Of a stretch of 64,000 nt of DNA, positions 11,474 through 58,909 are shown piece after piece. The stretch covers positions 1-64,000 of the forward strand of contig CATKHK010000103.1 of NCBI GenBank assembly GCA_949751835.1. The letters are read 5' to 3'. Positions within the stretch are counted from its first letter, which is position 1; every line of letters starts with the position of its first letter. Origin of the DNA: Blepharisma japonicum. Lineage: Eukaryota > Ciliophora > Heterotrichea > Heterotrichida > Blepharismidae. The notes below the pieces were generated by a model. The model saw nothing but the letters and a program-made list of their open reading frames with translations. It made no database searches and was not told the DNA's origin. Both the position numbers and the translations under genes were made by a program.

Positions 11474-11850
11474 ATGGTGGATAATAGACGCTTCGATCCA
11501 GACTGCGGACTTGATGCTGAATACATATGCCAATATTCAACTCCTGAAACTTACTCATGTGAAGTGCATCTAGGAAAGCATCATAAATTTGGCAATAGGT
11601 TTCATAGTTTTAACGCATTTATCTTGCGCCAAATGAAGAAACCAAGGGTGCAATCATTGAACTTCTAGCTAACGAAAAGTCTAAAAAAGAGATTAAATGT
11701 AATTCCATAAGTTTCTCTTACTGCTGGACTTATTGCTAGCAGTCTTAATAGGAAGTAATCATGCCGCTTCTGTCAAGCATAAAGCCATCTTTTTTGAAAT
11801 TTCTGCATTGTATATCGCAAAAGCGATTAATTTTGGAAAATTCATTTGCT
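11474..11850 (+). pseudogene. Broken zinc-knuckle family gene, N-terminal part only
   Basis: The frame from ATG 11474 reads FDPDCGLDAEYICQYSTPET, YSCEVHLGKHH and a HSFNAF segment, matching the zinc knuckle of the TPR twins. The match then jumps frame (APNEETKGAIIELLANEK aligns with VDGSKNAVLELLEQEK). Traces of the helical domain follow (FCIVYRKSD against FCAIYKKIDKM). At least two frame breaks and several stops are present, and no TPR or kelch part follows. It is the fourth recognisable N-terminus of this family in 12 kb. Confidence 0.75.
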
Positions 11851-12989: not shown

Positions 12990-15900
12990 ATGAAAATTAT
13001 ACTCTCCTTGCTCCTTATTTGCTCAGCTAATGCAGGATTGATTTCATCAGCAGGCTTTTCATTGAACCCATCTACAGTTCGCTCTTCAGCTACTTATTCG
13101 ATGAACTTTTTCCTATCATCTGCTACACCTGTTGACGCAAAAGTGACAATCGCTTTTCCATCTGACTTTGGAATATCAAATAATGCTAACTACCCTTGCA
13201 CTTTGAATAGAGGGGATAACATTGACTGTTCATCGGCATCATGCTCTGTTTCAAGCAATGTGTTGACAATAACCAATTTCTTTAGCCAAGGAGCAGTTGA
13301 TGCAGGCTCAACAGATGCTTTTTCTGTGACATTAAGTGGGATAACCAATCCAATTTCAACAACTAAAACCAATGCAATTATGATAACCACATATGACAGC
13401 AGCGGCAGTATAATTGACCAATCAAGCTCAGGTGATTCTTCCTGGATGGTTACAGCGACCGCGGCTTCTATGACTTCAGCTCAAATAACACCTACCTCAC
13501 AAGTAATAGGCGGGACAACTACTTGAACATTTACGTATACTCCTCAATATTCATCTCCCCAAGGCTCCACAATTTCTATCACCTTTCCTTACCAGAATTC
13601 CTACATTGGAGCAACAGGCTCTTCACTTAATTCTATAATAAGTACATCGACACCAACCTGTGCGTCTGTGAGTAATATAGCATCATCTCTTTCCTGCAGC
13701 TGATCCAGCTCAACAAATACACTTACTATTACAGGTGGCTTTCCATCAGCCTCAGCAACTGGGTCAGTTTCATTTACAGTCAGTTCGTGCTTGAATCCTC
13801 CAAGTCCATTAGCATTGTCAGGATTTGTATTTTATTTACTAAACTCAAGTGGTGGAACTTATGAGTATACCACATCCACAGTTTCTGTGACTGTCACAAC
13901 CCCCAATTCCATCTCAATTCTGGACTCATATATTTCAGCATCCACGAAAACTATAAGCTCGAGCACAACGATGTCAATCAGCTTTAGGCCGGCTAACCCA
14001 TTTGCAAATGGAGATATAGTTGAAATAACCTTTCCAAGCCAACTTTCTTATAGCACGACTGGCATGAATGTGATCGCAAAGCTAGGAATAGGCACTGCAA
14101 TTGGGGTAACACTCACCTGAACAAATTCCGGTTCTAATGTAATAAAGATAACAAATGGGTATACAGGTTATACACTTTCAGTTCAAGTCCAAGTTAGCTG
14201 CAGCACTGTGACTCTTCCAACTTCAACGCAGCCTACCGATCAGTTCAGTATTAGACATTTAACCTCAGCTGGCCTTGTTGTTGACTCTGGCACAGGAGGA
14301 AGATTTACTGCAACTGCTGGGACGATGCTTCAAGACGGCAGCAATGCTTGGATAACGGCCTCTGTTTATACAGTGGGGCTATCATCAATTTACTATTTTG
14401 ATTTTTTATTAGCCCACAGCTTGCCGTCTGGTGCAACCTTGTCAATAATCTTCCCATCGAGTGTGTCTATTTCATCAGCAGCTTCCAGCTCTTGTACTTA
14501 TATTATTTCAGGCATGACCAGCGCAAATTGTGTGGTTGCGTCAAAAATATTCAATGTTACAGATGGATTTCCAACTGGGGCATCTACAAAAGTAATCAAA
14601 GTTGGAATAGGCGGAGTTACAAATCCACTTACCACAGCTCCCACAAGCTCTTTTACAATCTCCTCATATACAGACAATACATTTCAATACATGATTGATA
14701 CCATCTCATCTGGGGTCACAATAACTTGCCAAGCTGCATCTTTGTCATCAGTTTTAGTCACCCCAACCTCTTTGATAACAGGAGATATAACAACATACAC
14801 TTTTACTGCAGTTACAACAACTCAAATCCCATCAGGCGGCTCTATGATAGTTACTTTTCCTACTGGCGTGTCAATAGAAAGCGGCAGCTTGACAAATGCT
14901 CAAAATTCATGTTCAAAAATTTCTGGGTTTAATACCAACAGCTTTTCTTGCACCTGCACAACAAGCAGTGTTACTATTGTTAATGGCTTTCAGTCAGGAG
15001 TCTTTAGCGCAGGAGGGACTTTGAGCTTTTCACTTGGCTATATTACTAACCCACCTTCAACCAAAAAGGCCCAGTCGTTTGCTGTAACCACTTATGATGG
15101 GTCTTCTTATGCCATAGACACTTTGAGTTCAGGAATTTATGTTCTAATGACAACTGCAAATACATTGCAAGCGACTATTACTCCTACTTCCCTTGTTAAC
15201 GGAGCTTCAACATCATATACAATTTCTATCACAATAAAAAATCCAACAAACACAGGGGTCGTTGTAAATGTCATTCCCCCATCCCAGGTAACTTTTCCAT
15301 CAAGCCCCGCTTGTGCTTCATCAAGCAGCACCGTCACAAGTATCAATAGTTGCACGAAAAGTGGAAGTGGAATATTGGCTTCTTTAAAATTAGCCAGCGA
15401 TCCTTCGTCGAGCGGAACAGTGTTGACATTCACGATAGCGTCAGTTACGAATCCTCCTTCGACCGAAATCACACCCACATTTGAAGTTTATACCTTGACC
15501 AGCGATGGATATTCCATTGATAAGCAAGAGTCAGGCATCACAGTTCAGACAACTACCGCAGCTTCTATTACAGATATGATTATCAGTGCAGGAGACTCGA
15601 AGATTACGGCCACAACATCTTATACAATTAGCTATGCCCCGATTAACATTCACCCAACAGGCACCACTATTACAGTCATTGTCCCTTCAGACTTCACGCT
15701 TAGCTCATCTACTTGCACTGCAGGCTCAAGCTTAAGCAACGATTTTCAATGCGTGGCTAGCGGAAACACAATCATCACCAGTGGAGGGTTTTCAACCGCA
15801 ATAACTTCTTCAAGTAGGGTCACGTTCACAATAACAGGCATCATCAACCCAAATTCTCAGAGTTCGACTTCAGCATGGTCAATAACGTCAAAGATAGGGA

Positions 15901-18900
15901 GCTACCTTATTGATACCAGTAACTCGGTCACTTCCACTTTCACCTGCACTTTGCCTTGTAAAGCTTGCCAGAGTTCACCAACTTACTGCACTGCTTGCGA
16001 TACTACTTCCTTATATCCTTACCTTTACAGCAATACATGTAATTCAGCCTGCCAAAGCGGATATTATGATGATATTACTACTCCAGCCAAAAGCTGCGTT
16101 ATCTGCGACACTAATTGCAATACTTGTCAAGACTATTCAATTTACTGTCTTACATGCAAAACCTCGAGCTCTTATCCTTACTTCTATAATAATACCTGTG
16201 TTACTAACTGCCCTTCTGGCACTGCTCCAGATTCAGGGTCTTGTGTTAACTGTGAGTCACCTTGCAAGCTCTGCAGTGCTACCAAAGACACTTGCACGTC
16301 ATGCGTTACCAGTTACTTTCTATATGGAACAACTTGCACTACTAAATGCCCAGATGGATATGTAGGAGTCGGAAGTGACTGCACTCCTTGTAGTGGATGT
16401 GCTACATGCTCAGGAACTACAACAACTTGTACAAGTTGTGGAACTGGGCTGTTTCTTTATAAACCGACAGCAACATGCACGAGCACTTGCCCAGCGTTAC
16501 TCTATGTACCTGGAAATGGGGTATGCAATGAATGCAACTCCACTTGTGCAACTTGCTCTGGGACAGTTGATACATGCAAAAGCTGCTGGAACGGATATAA
16601 ACTCTATGGTAATACTTGTGTAACTTCATGCCCTGCAGATATCACTGTTGATAATGGAAGCTCCTGCACACCATGTAGTTCGAGCTGTGCTAAATGCTCC
16701 TCAACTGACATAAATGTTTGTACAGCATGTGTTAGTCCATACCCACTTTTGCAAGATGGTGCTTGCGTTGATGCTTGTTCCGGAGGCTATATATTATCAG
16801 GAACAAGCTGCTTAAAATGCAATTCTGCCTGCTATGCTTGCTCACTTACGACGGCAAACTGTACCTCATGTCCAACCAATACTTATTTGTATAATAACTG
16901 ATGCTATAGCTCATGTCCTAACGGATATACCCCAACTTTGGGAGTTTGTGTCCTTATAACGAACTCTGAAAATTGTGCTCCTAGTTGCACTCCTTCAATG
17001 GTTGAAAATGCAAGCTGCGAAACAGTTTGCAATGTTGCAGCCTGCTTATACGACAACGGAATGTGCAACCAAGGAACTACAACATGCCCTTCTGGGTCTT
17101 ATTTGGATGTAAACGTATGCAAATCTTGCTCTTATCCTTGCAACTCTTGTACAGGACCAGCGACATGCACAAATTGTGCGATTAGCAGCACAACTGGGTC
17201 GACTTTACTTTATTACAATGGCTACTGTTATGATAATTGCCCAGCTGGGACTCTTTCAAATGGGCTGACTTGCACTGATTGCAATATTAAGTGTTCAAGC
17301 TGCCAAGGGACTGTTGACACATGTTTGACCTGCAGCTCAGGATATCTTTACAATAATGATTGTCTTTCAAATTGCCCAGCAGATACGACAGTTCTAAGCA
17401 GCTCGCAGTGCTTGGACTGCAATTCAAACTGTCTATATTGCTCAGGATTAACTACAACTTGCACTAAGTGCTCAAATGATAAAGTTTTACAGGGGTCAGC
17501 TTGTATGCTGAACTGCTTTTCAGGATGAACTGCAATCTCATCAACTTGCGTTCAATGTTCAGGATGTAGCGAATGCTCAGGTTCAGCAACTACCTGCACA
17601 GCATGTGACTCGTCTCTCTACCTCTACAACTCCCAGTGTGTTTCAAAATGCCCTGATGGAACTTATGCGTATGGAAATGTTTGTAACGATTGCGATACTT
17701 CATGTGTCACCTGTGCAGCCGCTGGAAGCTGCTTGACCTGCACAGCTGATACTGTTAAATATGGGACTTTGTGCTTAACTTCCTGCCCAAGTAGCTATGT
17801 AAACTCTTCAGGGACATGCACTCTTATAAACATTCCTGCAGACTGTGTTACTGGATGCACAACAACATTATTGGCCAATAGCGTGTGTGACTCTGCCTGC
17901 TTTTATAAGGAATGCAACTATGATAATGGCTATTGCTTAAATAGTGGAGTGTGTGCTGCAGGGCAGTATTATAACGGCACTGATTGTGAGAGTTGCTCCT
18001 ATCCTTGTCTTACTTGCAACTCAACATCAACTTGCGTATCTTGCACGACCTCAAAAGTAAACACAGGAGTGACTATGTTTTACTATATGAATTATTGCTA
18101 TGATACTTGTCCTCCTCGCACAATGCAAGTTGGCCTTATCTGTGAGGATTGCGATAGCAGCTGCTTGTCTTGCTATGGAAGCACAAGCACTTGTATTTCA
18201 TGTGATGCAGGAAAATTCTTGTATCAAGGGACATGTGTGAATGACTGCCCAGCAGATATAACAATTAAAGCAGGAACTGTTTGCAACTTATGCAGTCTAA
18301 ATTGTGCAACTTGCGCAGGGTATTATGATACTTGTACATCATGCAGTGCTGGAAAAGTAGTCCAGACTGGTAAATGCCAGGTCAGCTGTGACACCGGATA
18401 TACAGTAACTGAGAGCTCACCAGCAACCTGTCTGGCATGCACCGGAGGATGCACGACATGTAGCGTCCAAACTTATTATTGCACCTCTTGTCCTGCGGGT
18501 CAATATCTGCAAGGGAACTCTTGTGTTTCTTCATGTACTGCTGGAACTTATTTATTAGTAGGTAGCACTTGTCTTCCTTGCACGAGTCCTTGCGCGACCT
18601 GTGAAAACCTTGTAACGACTTGCAAAACTTGCATTTCTGGCTATTCATTATATTCTAGCGCTTGCTGAAATCCATGTCCAACTGGCTATGAGTCCATTTC
18701 TGGTATATGCACTCAAGAGTGTGCTGAAGGCTGTACCCAAACTTTGCTTAACAATGCCGTTTGCGACGCTGTCTGCAATACAGCAGCCTGTGTTCAAGAC
18801 AATGGGCACTGCGTTCAAAATGTGACTTGTGTAAATGGTCAGTATCAGTCAGGAAATACTTGTCTGAGTTGTGTTTATCCATGCAATAACTGTCAATCAG

Positions 18901-21900
18901 CTGCTTTTTGTACTTCTTGTCAGATTAGCTCAACAACAAGTCTTCAACTATATCTCTATCAAGGAAATTGCTATGACTCATGCCCAATAAAAACATACCA
19001 GAACGGCCTTATTTGTTCTGATTGCCCCTCTAATTGTGACCATTGCTCGAGCTCAACAGTATGCACAACCTGTTCTGGGACTTATGTGGTATATAATGGA
19101 GGATGCGTTACAAATTGCCCAAACCAGTGGACAGCTACAACAGCCCAACCAACTATATGCAGCCAATGCTCAGCTTCTTGTGACCAATGCTCTGGATCCA
19201 CTACCTATTGTACTTCCTGTAATGCTGGTTATATACTGACAGCCTCAAATACTTGCATAAGTTCATGTGCTGATGGGACTACACTAGTTGGCTCAGCATG
19301 CCAAACTTGTACTTCTCCTTGCGTGAATTGCAACGGCGCTGTGACCAGCTGTACTTCATGCATCACTGGCTTAGTGCTGCAGGGGAGCTCTTGTGTGACA
19401 TGCACTTCTCCTTGTAAAACCTGCTCTGGACTCCCAACTTATTGCCTTGATTGTGTTGAAGAATATTTTCTGTCAGGAACAACCTGCTTGCCTTGCAATG
19501 CGAATTGCAATACTTGCTCTAGCTATTCATATCAATGCACGTCTTGCGCGAGCGGAAAGTTTCTATCAGGAACTAGTTGTTTAACTTGTGATTCAACCTG
19601 TTTAACTTGCCTTGGAACCTCAACTACCTGCACAACTTGCAGCGCCACGAAATTCTTAGATTCTGGAAAATGCTGATCTTGCGATACCTCATGCTTGACC
19701 TGCGATACAACATATAATCATTGCACATCTTGCAATCCTCATTACTACCTCACTTCAAGTTATACATGTCTAGTGTGCGATTCTAGTTGTGATGGATGCT
19801 CTGGGTCTGCTACATTTTGTACAAGCTGCGTCTCTCCTTCAATTCTCCTCAACAACCAGTGTGGAACATGCAGCTCCTCTTGCGCGACCTGTGTGACTGA
19901 TTTCAATACCTGTGCTACTTGCTCAACTGGGAAAACTTTAATAAGCGGAAAGTGTGATACCTGTAAAACAGACTGCTTGACCTGCGTTACTGACTTTAAT
20001 ACCTGTGCCACTTGTCCAGCTGGGAAGTTTCTAGTAAGTGGAAGCTGTGTAGGATGCTCCTCAGAATGCGCAACCTGTCAAGGATCCAATACATACTGCA
20101 CTTCTTGCAATGCACCACTTGCGCTTATAAATAACAGTTGCCAAGTTTGTGATTCGACTTGCTTGACATGCAGTGGAACTACAAGTACTTGCACTACATG
20201 CCCCTATGGACTGAATTTGTTTGGGTCAGCATGCCTTGCTTGCACATCTAACTGCAAAACTTGTTCGGGAACTCAATCATCGTGCACATCGTGCGATGAT
20301 AACTATTATTTGTCAACCGCCCAGTGCCTACAGTGCAATGTCAATTGCTTGACTTGCTCAATATCAGCTTCAAACTGCTTAACTTGTGCTCCAGGATACA
20401 GCCTTATAGATGGCCTTTGCAAACAAATATGCAGCGATGGCTACTACCTGAGTGGGCTGACTTGCTATGCCTGCGATAATAACTGCAAGACATGTGTTGG
20501 TGTAGCTACATCATGCACTTCCTGCTACTCAGGGTTTATCTACAACAGCGCTTGTGTAACATCATGCTCAATTGGAACCTTTTACTCATCAGCCATATCC
20601 ACATGTGACAGCTGTTACTCTCTTTGCAAAGAATGCCAAACTTCAAGTACCCACTGCATTTCCTGCAATACAGGATACTCACTTTCGGATAGTAACACAT
20701 GCAATTTGATTTGTGGGGCTGGAACTTACTATGATGGCTCTCAATGCAAGACATGCTCTACGAACTGTGCGACTTGTAGTGGATCTCCTACATACTGCAC
20801 AAGCTGCTCCTATGCCAACCAAACGCTTACTTCTTCAGGATTTTGCCAAACTCCTTGCGGCATTGGATATATTCAGTTGGTAGCGAACGGAGATTGTGTA
20901 AAGTGTGATTCTTCGTGCTATAATTGTACTGGTACAACGCTTTACTGCACTGCATGTGCAGATACTACAAAATATTTGTATAAGGGAGTATGCTATACCA
21001 CTTGTCCGTCACCAACGACTGTAGTATCTGGAAGTACCTGCGTTGACTGCACTTCTCCATGCTCGACCTGTCAAACAACTCCAATTTATTGCCTAAGCTG
21101 TGTCTCTTCTTATTATTTATACCAAAATACTTGCTCAAAAAACTGTCCGACAAATTACACGCCAGCAACTGTGAGTGGAACAGGGGTGTGCTTGCCTCCT
21201 TGCGATCCAGGCTATGTGGCTCCATCATCAGATGGGAACTGTGTTCTGTGTGATACTGCCTGCAAGACCTGCAGTGTAACAACAACTAACTGCACGGCTT
21301 GCACAGACAGCACTAAATATCTATACAGTGGGGAGTGCTTAACAACTTGCCCATCTCTTATTACAGTTGCAATTGGAAGTGTCTGTAAGGATTGCACGCT
21401 GCCTTGCCTCACCTGCTCGACAACAGTCACAAACTGCTTAAGCTGCATATCTACAAACTATCTTTACCAGGGCACATGCTCAACATCATGCCCAGATGGC
21501 TATACAAAGGGCACTCAAAATGGGTCTGGGGTGTGTTTGGAGCCTTGCACTACAGGATATATCAGGGAGACTCCAAATGGAAATTGTGTTCAGTGCAATT
21601 CCGCCTGTACAAGCTGCTATGGGACCATAACGAACTGCACTGCGTGTGCTGATAGCTCGAAATATCTCTATGGAGGATCATGCGTCTCAACTTGTCCTAC
21701 AAATACAACAGTTGCTATTGGTACAAAATGCGAGGCTTGCTCTTCACCTTGTCTAACATGCAAATCGACTATCTACTCCTGCTTGAGCTGCATAGCGGGA
21801 TATTATTTGTACCAAAGCACTTGTGTGCAAAATTGTCCTTCTGGCTATACAGCCAGCACTGTTTCGGGATTAGGGGTTTGCTTAGCCGCATGCCCGTCTG

Positions 21901-24900
21901 GAAAAGTTCGAAACCCAGATACTGGAAATTGCGATACATGTGATACAGAATGTAAAACTTGCTCAGGCACTTCGAGCTATTGTACTGCATGCTCTGATAG
22001 TACAATGTATCTTTATCAAGGGACTTGTGTTTCTTCTTGTCCAGCAGATATAACAATAACTCTTGGAAATACGTGTGTGAGCTGCGATTCCACATGTCTT
22101 ACTTGCAGCACATCAACAACATATTGCACATCCTGTAACGGAAGCAAATATCTCTACTCAGGATTGTGCTATGATTCCTGCCCTAAGAATATAACTGTGG
22201 CAGAAGCCAAAACATGCGTGGCTTGCACATCACCTTGCCAGAACTGTACATCAACCGCAACTAATTGCATAAGCTGCATCAGCAACTATTATCTATATCA
22301 AAGCACTTGCGTTCTAGACTGTCCTCTAGGGTATAATAAGGAAGGATCATCATGCGTAGAATGTCCCAATTTGGATTGCACTAACGGGACGAACTCCACA
22401 AATAGTTCGAGTTCCTCAACTTTCACAGGAGGTCCTGTGCCTTTCCCATTCAGTGGCTTCACAGTAATTTCAGGAGGCATTCTAGTTGTTACTAAGCTAA
22501 CAGCATCAGGAGTTAGTTTGGTGAATTCAATTATTTCAACGTGGTCGATAAGTGCAGCTGCTTCATGGATTTTCCTAGGAGCATTCATTTTCACTAATGG
22601 CGGAGACTCTCCATCACGGCGTCTTCTAGCAATTGATCCTACTTCTGGCAGTCTTATGGTCTCAATTGTCCTACTCCTAATAATAGGTGCCCTAGCCTTC
22701 CACTATATCTGCAATTTTTCATTTATAGCACAATTCTTTGCAAAACCATGCAGAAAAGACCCTGCATTCAAATATTGGAGAAAAAAGCACAAATATTCAT
22801 TTTGGTCGATTTCTACTTGTGCTGCTTTTATCTCCTTCCATTCAATAAGGCTACTATATAGTGGGATGTGCAACAGTTTAAGTTTCAAGGCAATGTTTGA
22901 CAATAAAGGAAAAGTATATAAGCCTCTCATCAAATTTGGCTACGTAAGTCTTTTATGTACTTCTATACCACTAATCATTGCTCAAGGCTTGCTTTTAGGA
23001 CACTATAGCCTTGATGAGTGGATGTGAATGTTCTCATTAGACTCCTTGATCGTCACAATTTTACTTGCAATCCTGATATTCTGGGATATAAAGAGCATGG
23101 AAAAAGACTTACTCAGACATGAATGGGAAAAAGAACTAGGCCCACTTGACAAGTTAGAAGGCCAAAGCTTGGTAAACCCGAACAATACAATTACAGAACT
23201 CATGCAGATCTTCCCAGTTGACTTCTCTGGAATTCTTCCTCAAAAAATAACACCTATTAAAAGAAAGAAACTTAAGTATAAATCCAAATCAACGCAGCCT
23301 TCAAGAGCTAGTTCTCCGGTGTCTGAAAGACTATATCACAGAAAAAATTCGTTTCCTTTGCTTGAAAAAGATGGTGTGGAAGTGGATTTAGATTTCTTAA
23401 GAAAAGACACTTTGCCAAAGATCTTGGATGAGCCTATTGATGAGTCAAATCTTTTGGATAAACTTAGGGAAAATTCTTTGCTGAATGCAAATGACATCAC
23501 TGTGGTTCCAGAAGAGGACACGAAAGGAGAATTCGAAAAATCGAAAAAGGAGTACAAAATCCCTGTTTATCGGCCTACAGAGCAAAACTATGTACCATTG
23601 AATTTCAACCCAAGGACTGAAGAATGGACTGAATTAGTTGCTTATACAGAGAGAGGCTCAGAGCCTGAAGAAACCGAACCTAACCTTGAAGATCAAGAAA
23701 TCTTGATAGAAGAAGAAAAAGTCCCTGAAACTATGGCTCCTCCTCCTACTCCTCCACCTCCTCCAGAATCCCCCTCAAAGTCTCCTAACCATTATGGCAC
23801 AATTGAAGCCGAGCAAGAACTTGACTTTGATAAAGCCTTCGCTGACTCCAATGACCCTGAAATTGTAAGTGTCCCTCACAAGCCCACCGGAGGCAGAGTG
23901 CGAGTACGAAAAGACTTCAAAGGAGCCAGAATTGTTGACCTAGAAAACAAAGTCATTGATAGTGCCCCACCCATTGATCCTGCCAAATACGACATTCCTA
24001 AAACTATTGTCGATGAAAATGACGTCAGGTACGCTACATTGGTCACCCACTCTGGAGAAAAAGTTAGAGTGCACCGTAACTTCAGGGGGGCGAGAATTGT
24101 GGATTTGGAGAAAAAGGTCAACCACCCTCACGCATATTTGATTGGCCAGAGCGTGAAAAATGAAAGCGATTTCCAGTTCAACAATGCTTATCCTGACCCT
24201 GAAGACCCTGAAGTTGTAGTTGTCATGCATAATGAGACCGGAGAAGATGTGAAGGTTAGGAAAACTTTCCATGGCGCTGCTATGGTTGATGAGCATGGAA
24301 ATTTGATTCCTAACCAGCCTTTGATTGATAGAAATGACTATGATATTGGAAAAACAATTGTTGATAAAGAAGATGTCCATATAGCTACTCTCTCACATAA
24401 GAAAACCAATGCAAGAGTCAAAGTTCGTAGAGATTTCAGAGGAGCCAAAATTATTGACTTGGAACGCAAAGCTGAGCTACCTATTGGCCGGCATAATATT
24501 TTCTCTAAAAATGAACCTGAGCCTCTTTCTCCAAATGGAAGTGACCTGGACTTCAAAATTCTAGACCGAGGCTGGATGAGTCCTGCACATCCTGATGAAA
24601 GCTCTTTCGATTACAGCAGAAAGCCACCACGTCCTCAGCGAACTCTGAACTTTGGAGGTCCTAGAGAAGAGAATCCAGAGAGGAAGAATCTTGAAACCCT
24701 TGCAGAAATCATCCAGCAGGAAGAGAAAAAAGGCTCGAGAAGTGACCGAAAGATATTTACGAATGACTATAAAAACCAGATAGAAAGTGAAGGGGATGAG
24801 CCTTCGTTTGATTCCTTTGGGAATGAATTTATGATGCCAATTTCTCACAATTTAGACTTGGAGTACCCAATCCCTCCTGATTATGACTTTACAAATCCAG

Positions 24901-25229
24901 GAATGCTAGAAATGAATGAGTCTGTGTCATCAATTAATAGCAGAAACCCGAGGAGAAGAAGAAGGTTTAAGAAAAAGCAGCAAGGCCCAGTGTCATCTCG
25001 TATGAGGCAGATGGAAGAAATTTATCTTCAAAGGTTGGAGCCTGGGCCTAGAAGAGAGCCTAGACCAATGTTTAAAGAAGATATTGACGAGCCAGAATTT
25101 GAGCAGTGGGATCGGCCGGATTCTGGGATTGAAAGAGCTAGAGGAAGTGAAAGGACTTTATCCTCAGCTGGTGATGAAATTGTAAGAGGTGCTAGAAGAC
25201 TTCAGTATCCTCAGAGAAGAGATCTTTAA
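12990..25229 (+). CDS. Giant Cys-rich surface protein with LNR modules and membrane-anchored tail
   Basis: One frame of 4079 codons with no intron needed. In-frame TGA (Trp) occurs at 13524, 14118, 16899, 17526, 18666, 19674 and 23025 among others. Residues 1-16 are a signal peptide (MKIILSLLLICSANAG). Residues 17 to about 985 are Ser/Thr-rich beta-type repeats of roughly 120 residues marked by FP.. and ..ITNP. Residues 988-3130 are a very long furin-like, growth-factor-receptor-type Cys-rich array (C..C...C..C..CP.G). Three Notch-type LNR modules interrupt it, near residues 1327, 1617 and 1910 (C.....C, then DNG.C). Residues 3150-3370 hold about five hydrophobic segments. The tail (about 700 residues) has a proline run and four copies of an RVRVRKDFKGARIVDLE-like unit. 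It is probably a cell-surface or extrusome-type protein; ligand unknown. Confidence 0.9.
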
Positions 25230-35526: not shown

Positions 35527-36171
35527 ATGAAACCATCACTATCTCAAACTAATGATTACAATTTCAAAATAATCCTAGTAGGAGATGGAGGAGTGGGCAA
35601 AAGCAGCCTAATAAGAAGGTATATGAACAAAGAATTTTCAGAAAAAACGGCCACTACGATCGGTGTGTGGAGCTATACCAAAATTGTTGAAATGGAAAAC
35701 AAGAATATCATGCTCAACATATGAGACACAGCAGGACAAGAAAAATTCAAGTGTCTGATCCCGACTTTTTTCAGAGGGTCTCACGCTGCAATTTTAGTCT
35801 ATGATATTACCAACCAGCAGTCATTTAATTCTCTATTTTACTGGATTGATAAAATTCATGAGCATGCTACTTCTAACGTTGTGTTTATGATGATTGGAAA
35901 TAAATCTGACATGGAAACTAATCGCAAAGTAGCTCAGGAGTTAGGGCAAAGCAAAGCAAGGGAGAATAAAATGCTCTTTTTAGAGACTTCGTGTCTGAAT
36001 AGCACAAATGTGGAGAGGGCTTTTGAAGAAGTAACTAATCAGTTGCTTGTAGTTAATGGCAATCAAAGAATTGAGGAAATTAAGGCAAGCGAGCTGATCC
36101 CTTCTGCAAAAAAAATTTCAATAGTCCAGCAGCCTCAAGAAGTAAAAAAGAGAAAGAGAAGGAGATGCTAA
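35527..36171 (+). CDS. Rab-like small GTPase
   Basis: 214 codons with all G boxes: P-loop GDGGVGKSSL, switch I TATTIG, G3 W-DTAGQEKF where the Trp codon is TGA at 35722-35724, G4 NKSD and G5 ETSC. The G3 Trp is almost invariant in Rabs, so this gene is the strongest single proof of the code. The C-terminus is very basic and ends KKRKRRRC with a single terminal Cys, not the usual CC or CXC. That leaves its prenylation uncertain. A vesicle-traffic switch is the family role. Which Rab subfamily it belongs to is not clear. Confidence 0.95.
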
Positions 36172-37518: not shown

Positions 37519-38020
37519 TTATACGTCTAACCAAAACAAAACGGCAGGCACCTTGCACAGTTCTTTCTGCACTTTCGGATCAACTTGTTTGAACCCTAAA
37601 CATCGGAGAGTTCTATAAATTTGATTCCTATTGGGCAATTCTCTATACACCGCAATAACAATCTTGTCAGCACGCTCCCACTCAGCGAACCTGGAGAGGT
37701 TCTCAAACATGGTGAAGTGCATAATTGGTAAAGCTTTCATATAGAGAAGTCGCCCAGACAGAAAGCACTCAGCAATGACCAGCCTTTTTTCTAGAGGTAG
37801 ACGAATAGTCAGCTTGTAGAAGCTGCACTCAGGATTAAGTGCGTCTACGAATCCTTGCTTGAATTCCTCAACGACTGGTTCAGGTAGTGGGTCGTGGTCT
37901 GGCACATCAAAAACATTCATGAGTTGTAAATTGAGAGAAGATACTTAGAGAATCGAAGTTCTGGTTGGGAGGTTCTTCACTATTTAGGGATGATTCGGTT
38001 GATTCGTCACTGCTCTCCAT
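37519..38020 (-). CDS. OAZ: Ornithine decarboxylase antizyme, two frames joined by +1 shift
   Basis: Antizyme binds and inhibits ornithine decarboxylase, sends it to the proteasome and restrains polyamine uptake. ORF1 starts at ATG 38020 and has 37 codons (MESSDESTESSLNSEEPP... THECF) before TGA 37909-37907. ORF2 in the +1 frame gives 129 residues to TAA 37519. ORF2 shows the family core: FLSGRLLYMKALP, then ENLSRFAEWERADKIVIAVY and RTLRCLGFKQVDP, matching LSGGGLYIE, LLEFAEEQLRADHVFICF and RTFSFLGFEIVRP of animal antizyme. The junction is TTT-TGA-T, a known type of antizyme shift site, although TGA means Trp elsewhere in this window. A rival is a 16-nt GT-AG intron at 37914-37899 that would also join the frames. 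It lacks the GTA start and the A at position 10 of the local introns. Confidence 0.88.
37906..37914 (-). promoter_or_regulatory. Candidate programmed +1 frameshift site TTT-TGA-T
   Basis: Zero frame reads GAA TGT TTT TGA TGT. The +1 frame reads GTT TTT GAT GTG. A P-site UUU can re-pair with UUU one base on because a T follows. In other antizymes high polyamine raises shifting at NNN-UGA. If TGA were simply Trp here, zero frame would continue through two more TGA codons to TAA 37837-37835, giving a 61-residue dead-end product. Confidence 0.7.
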
Positions 38021-38440: not shown

Positions 38441-41400
38441 ATGAAGAATCATCAGACGAATAAAGAGGGTTCATCCCCTCTCTTATTTAAAGCACCCATT
38501 TCCTGCAATCAACACAAAGATGCAGACGAAGATTCTCTTCTGCTAAGTATAGAGCCATATTCTTACAAACAGTCAAAAGCCTTGACGTTCTGGATTTTCA
38601 CAATTTTATCAGGAGGTCTATTATACCTCTTCGATTTTTGGTTTCTCCATTTGCACCTCCACTTGCGATATTCCAAAGCTCCGATCTCACAAGCTTCGCA
38701 TTTGCTCATTAAAACCAAACATTTCGTTGATCTGGTCAGAATCGAATACAAAAATTCGCAATCCTTGGGCAAAATTTTGACATTCAGCCACCACCACCTT
38801 TCGTATTACTACGACGGTGACCTTTTCCAGCCCATTTTCTTCGATTCTGCTTTGCATTATAAGAGGCTGATAGACCGATTTGGACAAGGCATAAGGAACC
38901 CTGAAGAAGTTCTAGAAAAAAAAGAAATTTTTGGACCATGCCAAATTAACGTCCCAGTTAAGCCTATTATGAAGCTGCTAGTAGAAGAGCTGCTTCATCC
39001 TTTTAACATTTTCCAGATATGGAGTTGCATTATCTGGTATTGAGAAGACTATTGGTATTATGCTTCAGCCATCGTCGTGATCACTTTGATATCATTGACC
39101 ACCTCATTGGTACAGACCAGAAAAAGTATGGATTCTCTTCATAAATTGGCCCTTAGGGAAATAAAAATTACAGTGATAAGAGACAATGTAAAAAAAGAGG
39201 TCTCGAGCACAGAATTAGTCCCTGGAGATCTGGTTGAAATTCCTGAAGGTGGAGAAATCCCTTGTGATATTGTGCTCATATCCGGCAGCTGTATCATGGA
39301 AGAAGGAATGCTGACAGGAGAGTCAGTCCCAGTCATGAAAGACGCACTTCCTTATTTGGCTGAGCCAATTTACAACATTGAGCATGACAAACGACATTCT
39401 TTATACGAAGGGACAAGAGTGATCCAGACCCGCAACTTTGGAGGCGCAGAAACACTAGGAATAGTTACAAGAACTGGATTTTTGACTATGAAAGGGAAGT
39501 TGGTGAGGTCAATTTTATTCCCAAAGCCAAATAAGTTTAAGTTTTACCAAGACTCAATGAAATTCATTGCAGTTCTCATCGTTTTTACCTTTATTGGCTT
39601 TTTCTTATGTCTTCCATTTCAAATAAGCCAAGAAGTCCCAACTGAGGAGCTGATAAAGCGATGCTTAGATTTAATTACAGTCACCATCCCTCCAGCACTC
39701 CCAGCAGCTATGACTGTTGGTACTGCATTTGCTATCACCCGCTTAAGAAAAGACAAAATCTACTGCACCTCTCCACCACGTGTAAACGTTGCTGGCAAAA
39801 TTGATACTTTTTGCTTTGATAAAACAGGGACTTTAACTGAAGACGGAATGAATTTGCTTGGTGTTCACCCAGTATCCAGCCAAAAGATGGACAATTTTGC
39901 ACCCAGCCCAAAAGTAATAGAAAGCACGCACAAAGAGCTTATTGAATGCATGGCCTGCTGCCATTCATTGACCACAGTTAATGGCGAGCTCTTAGGAGAC
40001 ACCCAAGACTTGATGATATTTAATAGCACCAAGTGGCTCCTAAACGAAAACGAGCTCTATGACCCTGCCATTAAAGCTATAGTCAAGCCAAGCACTTCTG
40101 AAGAAATTTCAGATGTCTTTGATGAAGAAGGCAACGTGATGGGGATCATAAACCTCCCTTATGAAATCGGCATCCTTCATATTTTTCACTTTACTTCAAA
40201 GCTGAAAAGGATGGGTGTAATAGTGAAGAACCTAAGCGACGATTCTTTTGCCTTTTTCATGAAAGGAGCCCCTGAAGTTGTTCTGGAAAAGTGCCATGAG
40301 TCAAGTATCCCAAATAATCTTAAAGAGGTCCTTGCTGAGTACACAAAAAAAGGATATAGGGTGCTAGCTTGTGCTTCTAAGAAGATACCACCGATAAAGT
40401 ATACAGAGCTGAGATCGTTTAAATTAGAAGAAATTGAAAATGATTTAGAGTTTTTAGGGTTTTTGGTTCTGCAGAATAAGCTGAAATCACAGACTATCCC
40501 CTCAATTCATGATTTGCATAATGCAAACATTAGAACAATAATGGCAACAGGGGATGCAGTCCTTACAGGGATATGCGTAGCAAGGGAGTGCGGGATTTTG
40601 GACGAAGAAATCACAGTTTTTCTTGGAGAAATGAATAAGGGTGAAATTTGGTGGGAAAAATTTCAAGTCAGCAACTCCACAGAAATAGAAACCACAAATG
40701 AAGCTCCATGGAAATCGCTGGGATTTGAAGGAAACTACGCCCTGGCTCTCACAGGTTCTGCATTTACACATATAATCAAGCAAACCGAAAGTGAGCGCAA
40801 AGAGGATATAAATTCCTTAAAAATCGTCATGGAGAAATGCAAAGTCTACGCTAGAATGTCTCCAGAGCACAAAACCCAACTTGTCGAGCATTTGCAAAAC
40901 ATCGGATACCTCGTCGGCATGTGTGGAGACGGTGCCAACGATTGCGGAGCCTTAAAAGCAGCTGATATTGGCATTTCGCTGAGTGAAAGTGATAGTTCGA
41001 TTGCTGCACCTTTTACAAGCCAAATCGCAAATATTTCATGTGTAAATACTGTTCTTAGAGAAGGGAGATGCGCCCTCACCACTTCTTTGCAGTGCTTTAA
41101 GTTTATGGCACTTTATTCCATGATCCAATTCATCACTGTCAGCATGCTCTATTGGTCAGGGAGCAATTTGAGTGATTCTCAGTATATGACTGTGGATTTA
41201 CTTACAGTGCTGCCTCTCGCTATATGCATGAGCTACACAAAAAGCTACCCGAAATTAAGTAAAAGGCAGCCAACAGCTTCTTTAATATCAGTTCCAGTCC
41301 TCACTTCAGTGATCGGACAAGCTGTTATTGCAGGGGCTACACAGATTACAGCCTTTTTAGTATCCCGAGAAATGCCTTTTTGGGAGTCAATTGATTATAA

Positions 41401-41812
41401 GCCTGGCACCTCAGTTCTTGACTATGAGTACTCCTATGAGAATTCGGTGCTGTTTTTGGTCTCGTGGTTTGAGTATCAGTTTGTGTCTCTTGCCTTTTCT
41501 ATAGGAAAGCCATGGAAAAAGTCTATGTGGACTAATTTCTGGCTGAGCTCTTCCACTGTAATTTTGTCGGCTTGGACGCTTTATGAGATTTTGATTCCTG
41601 CTGACTGGGCTCGGCATCTTGTCAATGTAAGAGATATTTAGATTAAACCTTTCCCATTTTACTTTAGAATAGCACTGCTTTCTATTTGTCTAGCATATGG
41701 ATTGATTGTTTTGTCTTTTGAAAAATTCATAGTGCCTTGGATAGATATAGTTAATAGAAGGCGCGCGAATAAAAAGAAGTATGATGCTAAGCTTAAAGAT
41801 CTTTCTCAGTAA
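38441..41812 (+). CDS. P5B-type P-type ATPase (ATP13A-like)
   Basis: 1118 residues after removal of a 15-nt intron at 41627-41641 (GTAAGAGATATTTAG). Without splicing the frame would stop at TAG inside the intron. The splice adds IKPFPFYFRIALLSI and the last membrane helix. Motifs in order: TGES in the actuator domain, PPALP in M4 (the P5B form), phosphorylation site CFDKTGTLTEDG, nucleotide-domain KGAPE, and hinge GDGANDCGALKAADIGISLS. The N-terminal helices carry the family's IEPYSYKQSKALTFW signature. Studied P5B pumps (ATP13A2, ATP13A3) move polyamines out of late endosomes or lysosomes, and that substrate is inferred here by family. Its neighbour, the antizyme, is transcribed divergently. 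Confidence 0.95.
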
Positions 41813-42693: not shown

Positions 42694-45084
42694 ATGATTT
42701 TGCCAATAAATTTTCCTCAGAGCTCGATCAACTGTGACAAAGAAGACGGCCAGAGCTTTTTGCCTATGGAAAACAACACAACTATATTTAATCTCGACAC
42801 AAGTGAATCACCAATAGTCATCCCTCAAATCCAGCCCAAACGGAGGCTTCAAGAAAAAATGATAAATTTCCTAGAATCAAATTCTTTACTGGTATTTATG
42901 ACAATAATAACAATATATGCTCTTTTTGGTGACGATATTCGACTTGCTGCATTTTCTAAAGACGAAGACGACGTCTTTTTTTCACTTGCTACAGTCTGTT
43001 TTGCTCTTTTCTCGATTGAATTGATTTTAAGCTGCCTATATAAACCAGGCTATATTTTGTCTATGTACTTCTTGCTTGATCTGCTTTCGACACTCTCTTT
43101 AATTACTGACATTGGATGGATTTATGAAAGCATGATCGGAGTTGATTCAAATTCTTCAAAAAATGCTTCAAGTATACAAAATGCATCAAGAGCTTCACGG
43201 GCTGGGACTAGAACAACGAAATATGTAAGAATTATTCGGCTGGTAAGACTACTAAGGGTTGTTAAGCTGTATAAAAATGCGAATGTAGCAATAACCAAAA
43301 CAGGTCCAGAAGAAATAGAAACTGCTGTGATACCAAAAGAGTCTCAGGTTGGAAAAAGATTTAGTGATTTGACTATAAAACGAGTCATTATTATAGTGCT
43401 ATTAATGCTTTTTATACTCCCATTTTTTGATACAGATTTTTACCACTCAGACCCAACAAGCTGGAATTTCGGCCTAGACGAGGTCATTGCTTTCGAAGGT
43501 AGACGTGGCTTTTGAGATGTCGTTGAAGAGTACTGAAATTACCATGTAAATGACACTCGTCCTATCATATATTTATATTTAGAATATTCCAACGGTACAA
43601 ATTACACACGAGAAGGAGATGCTGACTATACCGATCTTAGGTACAACGAATTCGAAACTTCAGGTAATGACAGTTCCTTTTCTGTTTTTGATATCAGAGC
43701 TGACACAAAACTGGCTGCTATCCTAAACATTTGCCAAACAATTTTTATTTGCTTCGTTTTCACCGTTGCTGTCTTTTATTTTACAAAAGACACTACAAAT
43801 CTTGTGATTGCTCCAATTGAAAAAATGGTCCAAAGGGTTAGAGAAATTGCAAAAAACCCACTTTCTGCTTATAAAAAGAAAGATATTTATGAAGGCAAAA
43901 AGAAAAAGTTCTGCTTTTGCTTTTCATTAGGAACAGGGGAAAATGGAAAATATGAAGCTACATTATTAGAAGATACCATGAATAAAATAGGTGCATTATT
44001 AGCCTTAGGATTTGGAGAAGCTGGAGCTTCTATAATATCTTCAAACATGGAAACTGGAGATTTACAGTTCAAAAAAGGAAGTAAAATTGTAGCAATTTTT
44101 GGGTTCTGCGACATTAGAAACTTCATGGATACCACAGAAGTCCTACAAGAAAGAGCCATGATATTTGTTAACGAAATAGCGAAAATTGTGCATAGGACTA
44201 TTGACGTGTATCAGGGAGCTGCTAATAAAAATATTGGTGACTCCTTTCTCCTTGTATGAAAATTCAAGTCAAAAGACGATTTTTCTATCAGCAATAATAT
44301 GATCCAAAGAAACCCTTTATCAAGAAAAGCTGAATATTTGCCAGATTTGGCACTTTTGGCATTTTTAAAAATCCTAGCAAAAATGAATAAAGATTCGTCG
44401 ATTCTGAAGTACCGACAAAGTGAAGCTTTAAACAAAAAAATGAGAAACTTTGAGGTAAAAATGGGGTTCGGACTGAATTTCGGCTGGGCAATTGAAGGTG
44501 CTATAGGTAGTAAATTCAAAATTGATGCAAGCTATTTGTCTCCTCATGTAAACCTTGCATCAAGACTTGAAGCTGCCACAAAACAATATGGAGTTCCATT
44601 AATCTTAAGTGGCGCTTTATATGATTTATTTTCTCCTGCAATAAAAGCATTTTGCCGCCACATTGATACAGTTATTATAAAAGGAAGCAACACGCCTATA
44701 AGAATTTATACCAGCGACTGTGATTTCTCTGAGTTATATCCTTCAAGATCAAAGCCAAAAACTAAAGAAAATTCAAATTTAAAGCGAAAAGCACTTAAAA
44801 GGAAGCTAGAAGATAGGTCCTGAAACCCTATTGATAGCTTTTCTGAGTCAAAATCAGTAACAATAATGAGGAGAAGCTTCAAAAAAGAATTTTTCGAGAC
44901 TTTTGAATCTGGGTTCAAACTCTATCTTATTGGGAATTGGAGGTCTGCATATGGGAAATTCGAAGAATGCTTGAAAATGAAGCCAAAGGATGGCCCGTCT
45001 TCAAGGTTGATGGAATTTATCAGTGAAAATGGTTTTCAGCCTTCTCCAAGTTGGGAAGGGTATCGAGCACTAAATGAGAAATAA
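42694..45084 (+). CDS. Voltage-sensor-linked class III nucleotide cyclase
   Basis: 796 codons, with TGA as Trp at RRGFWDVVEEYW, FLLVWKFK and DRSWNPID. Residues 55-200 contain four hydrophobic segments ending in an S4-like helix with regularly spaced Arg (RIIRLVRLLRVVKLYK). Two further helices flank an extracellular loop with several N-glycosylation sites (residues 230-360). The catalytic domain spans about residues 460-650: first metal Asp in FCDIRNF, second in NIGDSFLLVWK, transition-state Asn/Arg in VNLASRLEAAT, and a Lys/Asp pair (VWK, KID) suggesting ATP as substrate. A short TPR-like end follows (FESGFKLYLIGNWRSAY). Ciliates and apicomplexans are known to fuse channel-like domains to adenylyl cyclase. 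No K-channel TxGYG filter is visible, so conductance is doubtful. Confidence 0.9.
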
Positions 45085-53363: not shown

Positions 53364-54899
53364 ATGGAATCTCCTCAATCTTCTACTTCCTCTCTATCGT
53401 CTGAGTATAGTGGCAATCCAAAGATAGAAACAACAAATAAATCTCCCCTTTCTACCTTAGAAATCGCCAAAAGGAGTCCAAGTCTCCGGAACCTTAAAAC
53501 GACTTCTTCTCAAGAGAAATTTTATAATCATAAAGAAGCCAAGCCTAATCTTACTAACAGTGTCCAAGAATTTATTAAGCAATCTAACGACATCCAAACA
53601 GAAATCAAAAAAATCTGCGAAATCTGTGAAAAAATTAGCCCGACAAAAGAATTTGAAGAGTCTTCAGAGGAATCTGAAAGCACGGGCGGAATATTATGGA
53701 ACGAAATAAATGACATGCTCAATGAATATGGATTTCATCCAATAACCCTAGTTGAAAAAGACGAATTTTTAGTTCCTGACAGCTCCAGCATGGCTGATAC
53801 TTTAGTAGACTTGCTTTATGAATTTACCTCTCAAAATCAGCTACTTAAAGAAAGGTCAATTGAATATCAAAACGCAATTTCTGAAATAAATGAGCTTAAA
53901 GACAGCCAAAATGACCTTGAAAATAAAATCGAAGCTTTAAAAGCAGAAAAAACAAATAACAAATTAGCAGATGATGTAAAAGAATTAGAAAAAATTTGTA
54001 TGCAGATGGATGAAAAAATGAGGAAGTTTAAAAAGGAGCAGCATAGAAAAGATTCATTAATAAGAGAGCTTCAAGCAAAACTTTATTTAAAATCATCAGA
54101 AAAATCTATAGTTGATATTTTGAACTCATCAGTAATTGATAAACAAAAAAAAATTTTCTTTAAAATGATGAATCGAGACTATGATGAAAAGCAGCCCACA
54201 GATATAAAAATTATGGCAATAATATTGATGTATGAGCAGCAGCGCATCATGCAGGATCAAGAAATTTCACGTATGAGGCTTTCTCTTCAAGAAACCCGAG
54301 GCTTCAGCAAGTCTTCAGAAAACTTAAGCTTCCTTAACGCTTCTTTTCAAATGAGCAGGGATTCTTATTCACTTCAAGGCATCTGTGATAGGCTAGGAGT
54401 TCAAGGCGCACCTGAAGCTTTTAAAGAAATAGAAAAATTGAAAGGGGCTTATTTAGCATCAAAATCATTAGAAGACTCAATAAATAAAATCCATATCGAG
54501 CTTTTCAATGAGCCTTTTACAATGAGCAATATGCACGATGATATTGACGAAATGATAAAAGCCCTAAAATCTTATAAAGATATAGCCAGAGATTTCAACG
54601 ATTTCAAAAAAGACATTTCAACTGCTTTTGGAACTGAAATTTATGACTGTGAAAATTTAGTAAAAATTAATTAGATCATTAAAGCACAGTCCTTAGGGCA
54701 TTTTAGGAAGCTATTTCAGTTAAAAGATGATGACCAAGAGTTTGATGCAATTGAGCAACTGTTTTTATTTGTTCATGAAATGAAAATGTTTCTTCAGGTA
54801 ATTTTCATTTAGCTGGCAAGAAAAGCACTAGGAACTAATGAGAAAGTTCCAATTAAATTTGTTCTTGAGGAAATTGCAAATAAAATATTGGATTCTTAA
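53364..54899 (+). CDS. CEP70: CEP70-like centrosomal protein, two 15-nt introns
   Basis: 501 residues after removing introns at 54660-54674 (GTAAAAATTAATTAG) and 54798-54812 (GTAATTTTCATTTAG). Residues 110-165 (ILWNEINDMLNEYGFHPITL, then TLVDLLYEF) match the start of vertebrate CEP70 (WESINVLLMMHGLKPLSLV). A coiled coil covers residues 165-240. The C-terminus made by splicing (IIKAQSLGHFRKLFQLKD, then LARKALGTNEKVPIKFVLEE) matches CEP70's TPR-like end (LQAIVSHFQKLFDV). CEP70 acts at centrosomes and basal bodies, binds gamma-tubulin and helps ciliogenesis. The start is the first ATG in a Ser-rich leader; an upstream non-ATG extension is unlikely. Confidence 0.85.
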
Positions 54900-57160: not shown

Positions 57161-58909
57161 ATGTCTAAAATATATTTTAAAATGGAAAAACTTTCAGCAT
57201 CACTCCCTTTAGTAATTCATTCCCCAAATGGGCAGCTGGAAATAACATCTGAAGGCTCAGAAACTCTTTCTAACATAAAATCTTCTATAAGTGTCATTTC
57301 TATGACAGGACCTTACAGAACTGGGAAATCCTTTGCTCTGAATTCTATATTAGGAATCCAAGGAAGCACCTTTGGGGTCGGGAACGACGTCCGAGCCTTT
57401 ACCCAAGGCATATGAATGTTCATTGAGCCTCTTCCTGATAAAACCCTTATTTACCTTGACATTGAAGGCTTTGGATCTACCTCAAGATCCTCAAAAGATG
57501 ATGCCAAAATTTTTGCTTTGGCTGTATTATTGTCCTCCTTAGTAATCTACAACTCAAAAGGTGTTATTGACGAAGGCAGCATAAATCAGCTTGTGCTTGC
57601 TCTGTATTTTATTGAGTGCCTCAATTTAAAAGTAACTTTTAATTAGTCAGCATCTGATGACACCGAAAAACTTACCCCAAATTTCATATGAATATTAAGA
57701 GACTTTGTGCTTTCTTTAGAAGACGAAAATGGGAGGCCAATTACGTCAAAAATGTATTTAGAAAGGGTGTTAAGAGAACAAATTAAAGGAAGGAGTGCAG
57801 AAAACATCCAAGTCGGAAGACAGCTAATTGGCCAAACCTTTGAAAATAGAGACTGCTATGTGCTGCCAAGACCAGTGGATAGCGAAAATATGCTGCAGAG
57901 AATGGACGATATTCCTTTTGATGAGCTGAAAGACGAATTTAAAGAAGGAATTATCAAGATAAGGGAAGCCATAAGGAGATCTAATGTAAAAAAAGTTAAA
58001 GGGAGAAGCATAAAAGGTAAAGACCTGCTCAGACTTTTAGAAAACTATGTAAAATTTATAAATGATGGGAATATCCCGCCAGTGCCGAATACATGGGACT
58101 TCATAGTTCAACGAGAATATGAAGAAATTACAGCCCATTCTATGCTGGAATACCAAAAAGCGAAACAAGACATAATAAAACAAATCCCAATCGAAGAACA
58201 AATGATCAAGCTTTTCATTAAGGGACAAAAAGACATTGCAGAAGGCCGTATTTTAGGCTGCCATTTAAGACATGAAAAATATATGTATAATGCTCTGCAA
58301 GAATTAATGAAATTTTATGAAGATGAATTAAAAGAAATTTTGAAGCAAAATCTGAATTCTTCGTTGAATTATAATTTGGATATAATTTATTCACTTTTTA
58401 ACCCAGTTTTCCAAAGAATTGAGCTAAATGAATACAAAATGAATATTGATGTCCTTGAAGCTGACTGGACTTATGCAATGGATCAGTATGAAATTCAAGC
58501 TCGCGGGCCTGGAAAATTTATAGCAATCGCTGAATTTTCTAAAAGAAACCAAAACTCACCTTGCGCAAGACTATTAGGGACAATTTTTGAAGAAATGAGA
58601 AACCAGCTCTCACAGATGAAAATCCAAGAACTTTTCTTTGAGCAGCATCTCAGAAATGCAGAAGGGCACAAAAATTCAAAATCAATAATAGAACTGCGGT
58701 CAGAGCTGGCACTTAATAGATACAGAATGACCCAATTTAACGAAATTGTAAAAAATATCCAAAAAAAAGTCCTCAGGCAGCTGTAAAATTTAAATAGTCT
58801 TGAAAAGCTTAACCAAGGCGAAGAAGAGCTCGACGTGAAAATGACAATTGAGGTAATTTTTATACAGAGTGTCGCTATGAATCGGCAATGTGAATGCACT
58901 ATTTTTTAA
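57161..58909 (+). CDS. GBP-type large GTPase, three 15-nt introns
   Basis: 567 residues after removing introns at 57632-57646, 58783-58797 and 58853-58867. GTPase domain: P-loop GPYRTGKSFALN, switch with TQGIW (Trp is TGA), DIEGFGS (G3, the DxEG form), and ILRDF (G4, the RD form of guanylate-binding proteins). A long helical bundle follows from about residue 260 (NVKKVKGRSIKGKDLL onward), as in GBPs and atlastins. No C-terminal transmembrane helix is visible, so it looks GBP-like, not atlastin-like. The last intron yields a short end, NRQCECTIF, with Cys four from the end as in a CaaX box (CTIF). Start at ATG 57161 or at the Met seven residues on. Its stop is three bases from that of the convergent lipase gene. 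Confidence 0.9.

Follow-up and report, generated by a model that had tools for sequence, protein, structure and literature searches.

The reverse strand of a 64,000-nucleotide stretch of Blepharisma japonicum DNA (contig CATKHK010000103.1, positions 1 to 64,000; hereafter the window) carries, at positions 38020 to 37519, a predicted ornithine decarboxylase antizyme gene that is divided over two overlapping open reading frames (ORFs), ORF1 and ORF2, the frame of ORF2 being +1 relative to that of ORF1. Among eukaryotic switches that work by frameshifting, antizyme is the textbook case. The gene described here would probably be expressed by programmed +1 ribosomal frameshifting at a UUU-UGA site, in a genome in which UGA is a tryptophan codon. 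The window has 34.5% GC, TGA codons within its genes and 15-nucleotide intron candidates, in agreement with the 66% AT, UGA as tryptophan and introns of predominantly 15 and 16 bp that are reported for Blepharisma stoltei (PMC9942806).

Results

Layout of the locus

Codons 36 and 37 of ORF1 read TGT TTT (37915-37910) and codon 38 is TGA (37909-37907), while the +1 frame after ORF1 reads GAT GTG CCA and continues to a TAA at 37521-37519 (Table 1). The original prediction, in which a 37-codon ORF1 ended at TTT-TGA-T and an antizyme domain ran on in the +1 frame from GAT, had its coordinates and letters right, and the frame holds up to the TAA ending at 37519. A shift site of the type NNN-UGA with a U after the UGA is present as TTT-TGA-T. 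The +1 frame opens at 37944, and frame 0, with TGA read as tryptophan, closes at the TAA at 37837 after 61 amino acids; the junction of ORF1 and ORF2 must lie between these two positions. The fused ORF1 and ORF2 product has 166 amino acids; that of ORF2 alone, begun at the in-frame ATG at 37920, has 133. Two TGG codons are found in the antizyme gene, one of them inside TTT TGG, and no TGA occurs within ORF2.

Table 1. Features of the antizyme locus and its divergent neighbour (window positions).
Feature	Positions	Strand	Details and basis
ORF1, N-terminal part of proposed antizyme	37910..38020	-	37 codons, ATG 38020 to TTT; codon log-odds, ATG context
Proposed shift site TGT TTT TGA T	37906..37915	-	Sequence layout
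Parts of the shift site			P-site UUU 37912-37910; A-site UGA 37909-37907; skipped T 37909; first +1 codon GAT 37908-37906
ORF2, predicted antizyme domain, +1 frame	37519..37908	-	129 codons from GAT plus TAA (37521-37519)
Alternative ATG, ORF2 frame	37918..37920	-	133-residue product; C at -3; basis of the alternative of inner initiation
Frame-0 continuation with UGA as Trp	37835..37909	-	24 codons (37909-37838), then TAA 37837-37835
Candidate 16-nucleotide intron GTTTTTGATGTGCCAG	37899..37914	-	Intron-matrix score -1.22
P5-type ATPase closest to polyamine-transporting ATPase 13A2	38441..41641	+	E 9.1e-200 to 8iem_P; Pfam P5-ATPase

ORF2 as an antizyme homologue

As judged by sequence comparison and structure models, ORF2 is a predicted antizyme homologue. 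A phmmer search against solved structures returned three matches at E ≤ 1, and all three are antizymes (E 0.11, 0.12 and 0.18). Compared directly, a human AZ1 fragment shares 25 identities over 67 positions with ORF2; this fragment was trimmed to the stretch matched by phmmer, which makes the E-value of the direct comparison optimistic. Among the 383 stop-to-stop ORFs of at least 60 amino acids in the window, the fragment scores 73 against ORF2 and 42 against the runner-up, and not one of 5,000 shuffles reached 73 (maximum 49). The Pfam family ODC_AZ (PF02100) matches ORF2 with 12.4 bits (E 0.15), under its gathering cut-off of 24.2, which is a detection threshold rather than a trait of the protein; the unrelated family DUF7543 lies slightly above ODC_AZ on ORF2 and is likewise under its cut-off. 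Single-sequence AlphaFold models were weak, with predicted local distance difference test (pLDDT) values of 46.6 and 50.7. Foldseek searches with these weak models put human antizyme chains first in both cases, antizymes taking ranks 1, 2, 5, 9 and 29 for the full ORF2 and ranks 1-4 for the domain (probability 0.85-0.98), with no match of either model reaching E 0.001. Pattern searches for antizyme homologues in genome contigs and viral contigs gave 33 and 2 matches, respectively, none of which was confirmed. Literature searches listed no title on a Blepharisma antizyme, and one paper that has both terms does not connect them in the passages concerned; Ivanov and Atkins (2007) may mention such a gene.

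Coding character of ORF1

ORF1 looks coding. Its codon log-odds amount to 7.27 in frame 0 compared with about -8.4 and -8.5 in the other two frames, none of 2,308 intergenic windows matches this value, and coding pieces of 37 codons average 6.57 (n = 378). The intergenic windows overlap (1,154 positions on both strands, one frame each, with a penalty of 5 for an in-frame stop), and the log-odds table was trained on these same genes and this same intergenic DNA. The GC content is 0.39 in ORF1 and 0.25 upstream of it. At position -3, the ATG of ORF1 at 38020 has an A and the inner ATG at 37920 has a C, a base found there in none of 22 genes.

TGA is a strongly avoided tryptophan codon

That TGA encodes tryptophan in the genes of the window, as originally proposed, is borne out by its use inside ORFs and by a Rab gene. 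Within 25 ORFs, 45 TGA and 90 TGG codons occur as sense codons; these ORFs were called under code 4, so that their TAA and TAG ends follow by construction. In the Rab gene at 35527, codon 66 is a TGA at the W of WDTAGQE, a residue that is near-invariant in Rab proteins. The sole TGA of the neighbouring ATP13A2-like gene (codon 201) was dismissed as proof of the assignment; it aligns with an alanine of the solved relative.

The codon is strongly avoided. In 22 genes, 43 TGA stand against 88 TGG, compared with 1,942 A-ending and 704 G-ending lysine, glutamate and glutamine codons (odds ratio 0.18, p 5e-21). Such avoidance is what would be expected if UGA decoding were slow or error-prone; incomplete drift from TGG since reassignment could also have caused it. 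The base following sense TGA is an A in 28 of 43 cases (p 0.005 when compared with the other A-ending codons and 0.09 when compared with TGG), a bias that is suggestive, but weakly so, of a preferred 3' context for UGA as tryptophan.

At the proposed shift site the A-site UGA is therefore not the ordinary stop that is usual for antizyme, being a tryptophan codon in this genome; residual termination at it may persist. Published data bear on how it might be read. Blepharisma tRNA-Trp(CCA) is described as having a 4-bp anticodon stem (PMC13092985). The relevant part of PMC12005148 says of other organisms, though not of Blepharisma, that they lack a cytosolic UCA tRNA. The eRF1 of B. japonicum recognised all three stops in assays, although in the judgement of the same authors no predicted UGA stop of this species was a true one (PMC4967479).

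Proposed frameshift and its relation to known sites

From this layout we infer a programmed +1 slippage of tRNA-Phe on UUU-U with UGA in the A site, probably triggered by slow UGA decoding. Translation would start at 38020, and after 37 codons the ribosome would pause, its P site holding tRNA-Phe paired to UUU and its A site holding UGA. The tRNA-Phe would then move by one base to the overlapping UUU, on which it can re-pair fully, and reading would restart at GAU to yield the 166-residue antizyme. Ribosomes that do not slip would decode UGA as tryptophan and stop at the UAA 24 codons further on rather than terminate at UGA. Since this code does not use UGA as an ordinary stop, we attribute the pause to tRNA-Trp(CCA), a near-cognate that would decode UGA slowly, and perhaps in part to eRF1 still competing for the codon. 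Feedback by polyamines is assumed by analogy with other antizymes. A stricter version, in which antizyme frameshifting is free of termination and a slow sense UGA read by near-cognate tRNA-Trp has replaced the stop as trigger, is put forward tentatively, as a possibility short of an even chance.

The site has close counterparts. UUU-UGA is the shift site of all analysed Agaricomycete antizymes and of one from Dacrymycetes (35 sequences; PMC4505036). The Agaricomycete sites share with the Blepharisma site the +1 layout, the P-site UUU and the A-site UGA, but in those fungi UGA terminates translation and a stimulator in the nascent peptide has been reported, whereas here the triplet is a tryptophan codon and no stimulator was identified (PMC4505036). 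Human OAZ1 (UCC-UGA-U) has a homologous domain, a conserved U after the UGA and GAU as the +1 codon, all as in ORF2 and the site preceding it, but differs in its P-site UCC, in its 3' pseudoknot and in that polyamines act mainly via termination efficiency (PMC9841425). In Euplotes, likewise a ciliate with reassigned UGA, +1 shifts take place at standard stop triplets; those shifts are abundant and non-regulatory, whereas here a single antizyme gene is concerned, and its triplet has become a sense codon by reassignment (PMC10235951). The yeast Ty1 hungry-codon +1 shift has the same trigger as we propose here, namely a slow sense codon at which the P-site tRNA re-pairs, but occurs at CUU-AGG in a retrotransposon and not in an antizyme (PMC5009743).

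Evidence against frameshifting

A number of observations weigh against programmed frameshifting at this site. To begin with the letters themselves, TGA makes up 644 of 14,774 codons in the same relative frame of the 22 other genes, so that up to about 1.6 TGA would be expected by chance in the 36-codon overlap; for TTT-TGA the chance expectation in the overlap is at most about 0.05. The presence of a TGA in the overlap thus says little, and TTT-TGA is moderate support. The octamer TTTTTGAT is found 17 times in the window, 9 times on one strand and 8 on the other, and the letters of the shift site alone are therefore not rare. Moreover, the gene at 42694-45084 (+) reads TTT TGA G in frame at codon 274, with more than 500 open codons after it, from which it follows that UUU-UGA alone does not force a shift. 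The RNA structure around the site was no better than that of shuffled sequences (z 0.37 and 1.61), in a calculation of nested structures only in which pseudoknots were not tested, and the Rfam antizyme element was not found at the site, where two chance Rfam matches fell under the cut-off. Stimulatory RNA structures accompany many antizyme sites, though not all of them.

The gene-model dynamic programming (DP) also counts against a shift. At the default frameshift penalty it starts the antizyme gene at 37920, and it accepts a frameshift, at 37915, two codons from the TGA, only once the penalty is relaxed to -7 or beyond. At -7 it places three further frameshifts that appear unneeded (27831, 3954 and 46936); a penalty of -6 adds one at 11618, and at -5 there are eleven calls altogether. 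The call at 27831, which emerges already at -10, before the antizyme site, was rejected as a codon-usage fluctuation in an intact ORF. Those at 3954 and 46936 lie 8 and 14 bases short of gene ends.

Two published reports point in the same direction. The antizyme of Tetrahymena, also a ciliate with a variant code, reportedly needs no frameshift (PMC5009743), and Blepharisma eRF1 is said to recognise UAR only (PMC4695839). The sentence of PMC4695839 that states the latter gives UGA as cysteine for Blepharisma; eRF1 changes tied to weaker reading of UGA are listed there.

Two side observations belong to these points. PMC5009743 ascribes the frameshift-free Tetrahymena antizyme to UGA reassignment, and PMC4695839 gives UAA and UAG as the codons reassigned in that organism. 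The gene at 42694, which has a guanylate cyclase domain (Pfam) and which we read as containing a channel-like part, offers with its TTT TGA G a natural control for the antizyme site; this second site does not figure in the original prediction.

Alternative explanations

If translation began at the inner ATG at 37920, by leaky scanning or reinitiation, ORF1 would be an overlapping upstream ORF and no shift would be needed. This possibility is absent from the original prediction. The 133-residue ORF is complete from that ATG, is the predicted gene at the default frameshift penalty and matches antizyme only from residue 44 onwards, all of which suits inner initiation; the gene-like codon usage of ORF1 and the start contexts (A at -3 for ORF1 against a C that none of the 22 genes has) argue against it, and we regard it as unlikely. 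Splicing of the 16-nucleotide intron candidate at 37914-37899 would join ORF1 to ORF2 in a protein of 161 amino acids. Removal of this GT...AG 16-mer does place the two ORFs in one frame, 16-bp introns are known in B. stoltei (PMC9942806), and the 16-mer is among 25 candidates that pass a coding-gain filter, which any join of these frames would pass. Its features nevertheless differ from those of the local candidates: while it has GT...AG ends and a length within 15-16 nucleotides, it starts with GTT, has a G in place of an A at position 10 and ends in CCAG, which agrees with the earlier description of it as unlike the local introns. The ten local introns of that description correspond to ten 15-nucleotide candidates with a GTA start, an A at position 10 and a TAG or CAG end; they score 4.4-10.7 in leave-one-out tests with the local intron matrix as compared with -1.22 for the 16-mer, a score equalled or beaten by 74% of the 343 GT-N12-AG 16-mers in the window. 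Since the ten had been picked out by their pattern, the comparison is partly circular and leans against other intron types, and real 16-nucleotide introns may differ from the matrix that rests on them. Splicing would, in addition, turn TTT-TGA into a coincidence of about 0.05, and we consider it quite improbable.

An assembly indel in the five-T run, with a true gene in a single frame, would account for the layout as well: the site is homopolymeric, and the loss of one T would bring ORF1 and ORF2 into frame. However, 382 runs of at least five bases, 75 of them exact TTTTT, are found in 22 ORFs (44,322 bases) that stay open, although openness was itself the criterion by which these ORFs were picked, which biases the control; PacBio HiFi reads were used for the published B. 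stoltei assembly (PMC9942806), which is relevant only if the window comes from that assembly; and the indel would have had to hit the antizyme-type site of the antizyme gene itself. An error of this kind is hardly to be expected. As regards the options of the original prediction, frameshifting with slow or ambiguous reading of UGA is supported only indirectly, through UGA avoidance, tRNA-Trp(CCA) and the eRF1 assays of PMC4967479, with PMC4695839 to the contrary, and splicing is disfavoured by its score.

Intron candidates in the window

Eight of the ten 15-nucleotide candidates were chosen by the gene-model DP. In its first run the DP placed three introns, and with a matrix built from the ten pattern-chosen candidates it placed eight, a result that is partly circular for this reason. 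Besides the 16-mer there are 24 GT..AG stretches that would join the two frames (lengths of 10 to 127 in steps of 3), the shortest of 19, 22 and 28 nucleotides, and none of these 24 has a length of 15-16 nucleotides. Lists of GT..AG stretches ordered by coding gain (25) or open frames (43) were set aside; many entries are antisense in the gene at 12990-25229 and no clear intron type emerged. At three places on the forward strand (41627-41641, 54660-54674 and 57632-57646), an ORF end at TAG coincides with the 3' end of a 15-nucleotide intron candidate. Because of this coincidence the three TAG-ended genes may continue downstream, and some TAG "stops" may be intron ends.

A polyamine-related neighbour

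The antizyme homologue (38020-37519, -) lies head to head with an ATP13A2-like gene (+), the start codons being 420 bp apart. This gene owes its assignment to the best of 137 matched sequences, 60 of which were shown. A co-regulated polyamine gene pair is possible, and we mention it as a suggestion only.

Discussion

According to work in human cells, OAZ1 responds to polyamines mainly through a drop in UGA termination, and at another site spermidine raised UGA read-through more than 20-fold, an effect attributed to near-cognate decoding (PMC9841425). If a near-cognate tRNA-Trp reads UGA here, more polyamine should mean more in-frame reading and less slipping, contrary to the feedback, unless residual eRF1 competition, the slippage itself or the nascent chain serves as the sensor. 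This leaves two possibilities: UGA has retained some stop function in this ciliate, or polyamines are sensed without any need for termination.

Should antizyme frameshifting be free of termination in Blepharisma, what polyamines influence would be slow sense decoding or tRNA slippage and not the efficiency of the release factor, and an ancestral shift site would have outlived a change of the genetic code by switching its mechanism. With UUU-UGA apparently kept while UGA encodes tryptophan, a slow A-site codon and termination would be separated in nature, which makes for a natural test. The locus is also relevant to how a regulatory signal built on a stop codon can persist after that codon is reassigned, and it could show whether the UUU-UGA slip signal truly requires a stop codon.
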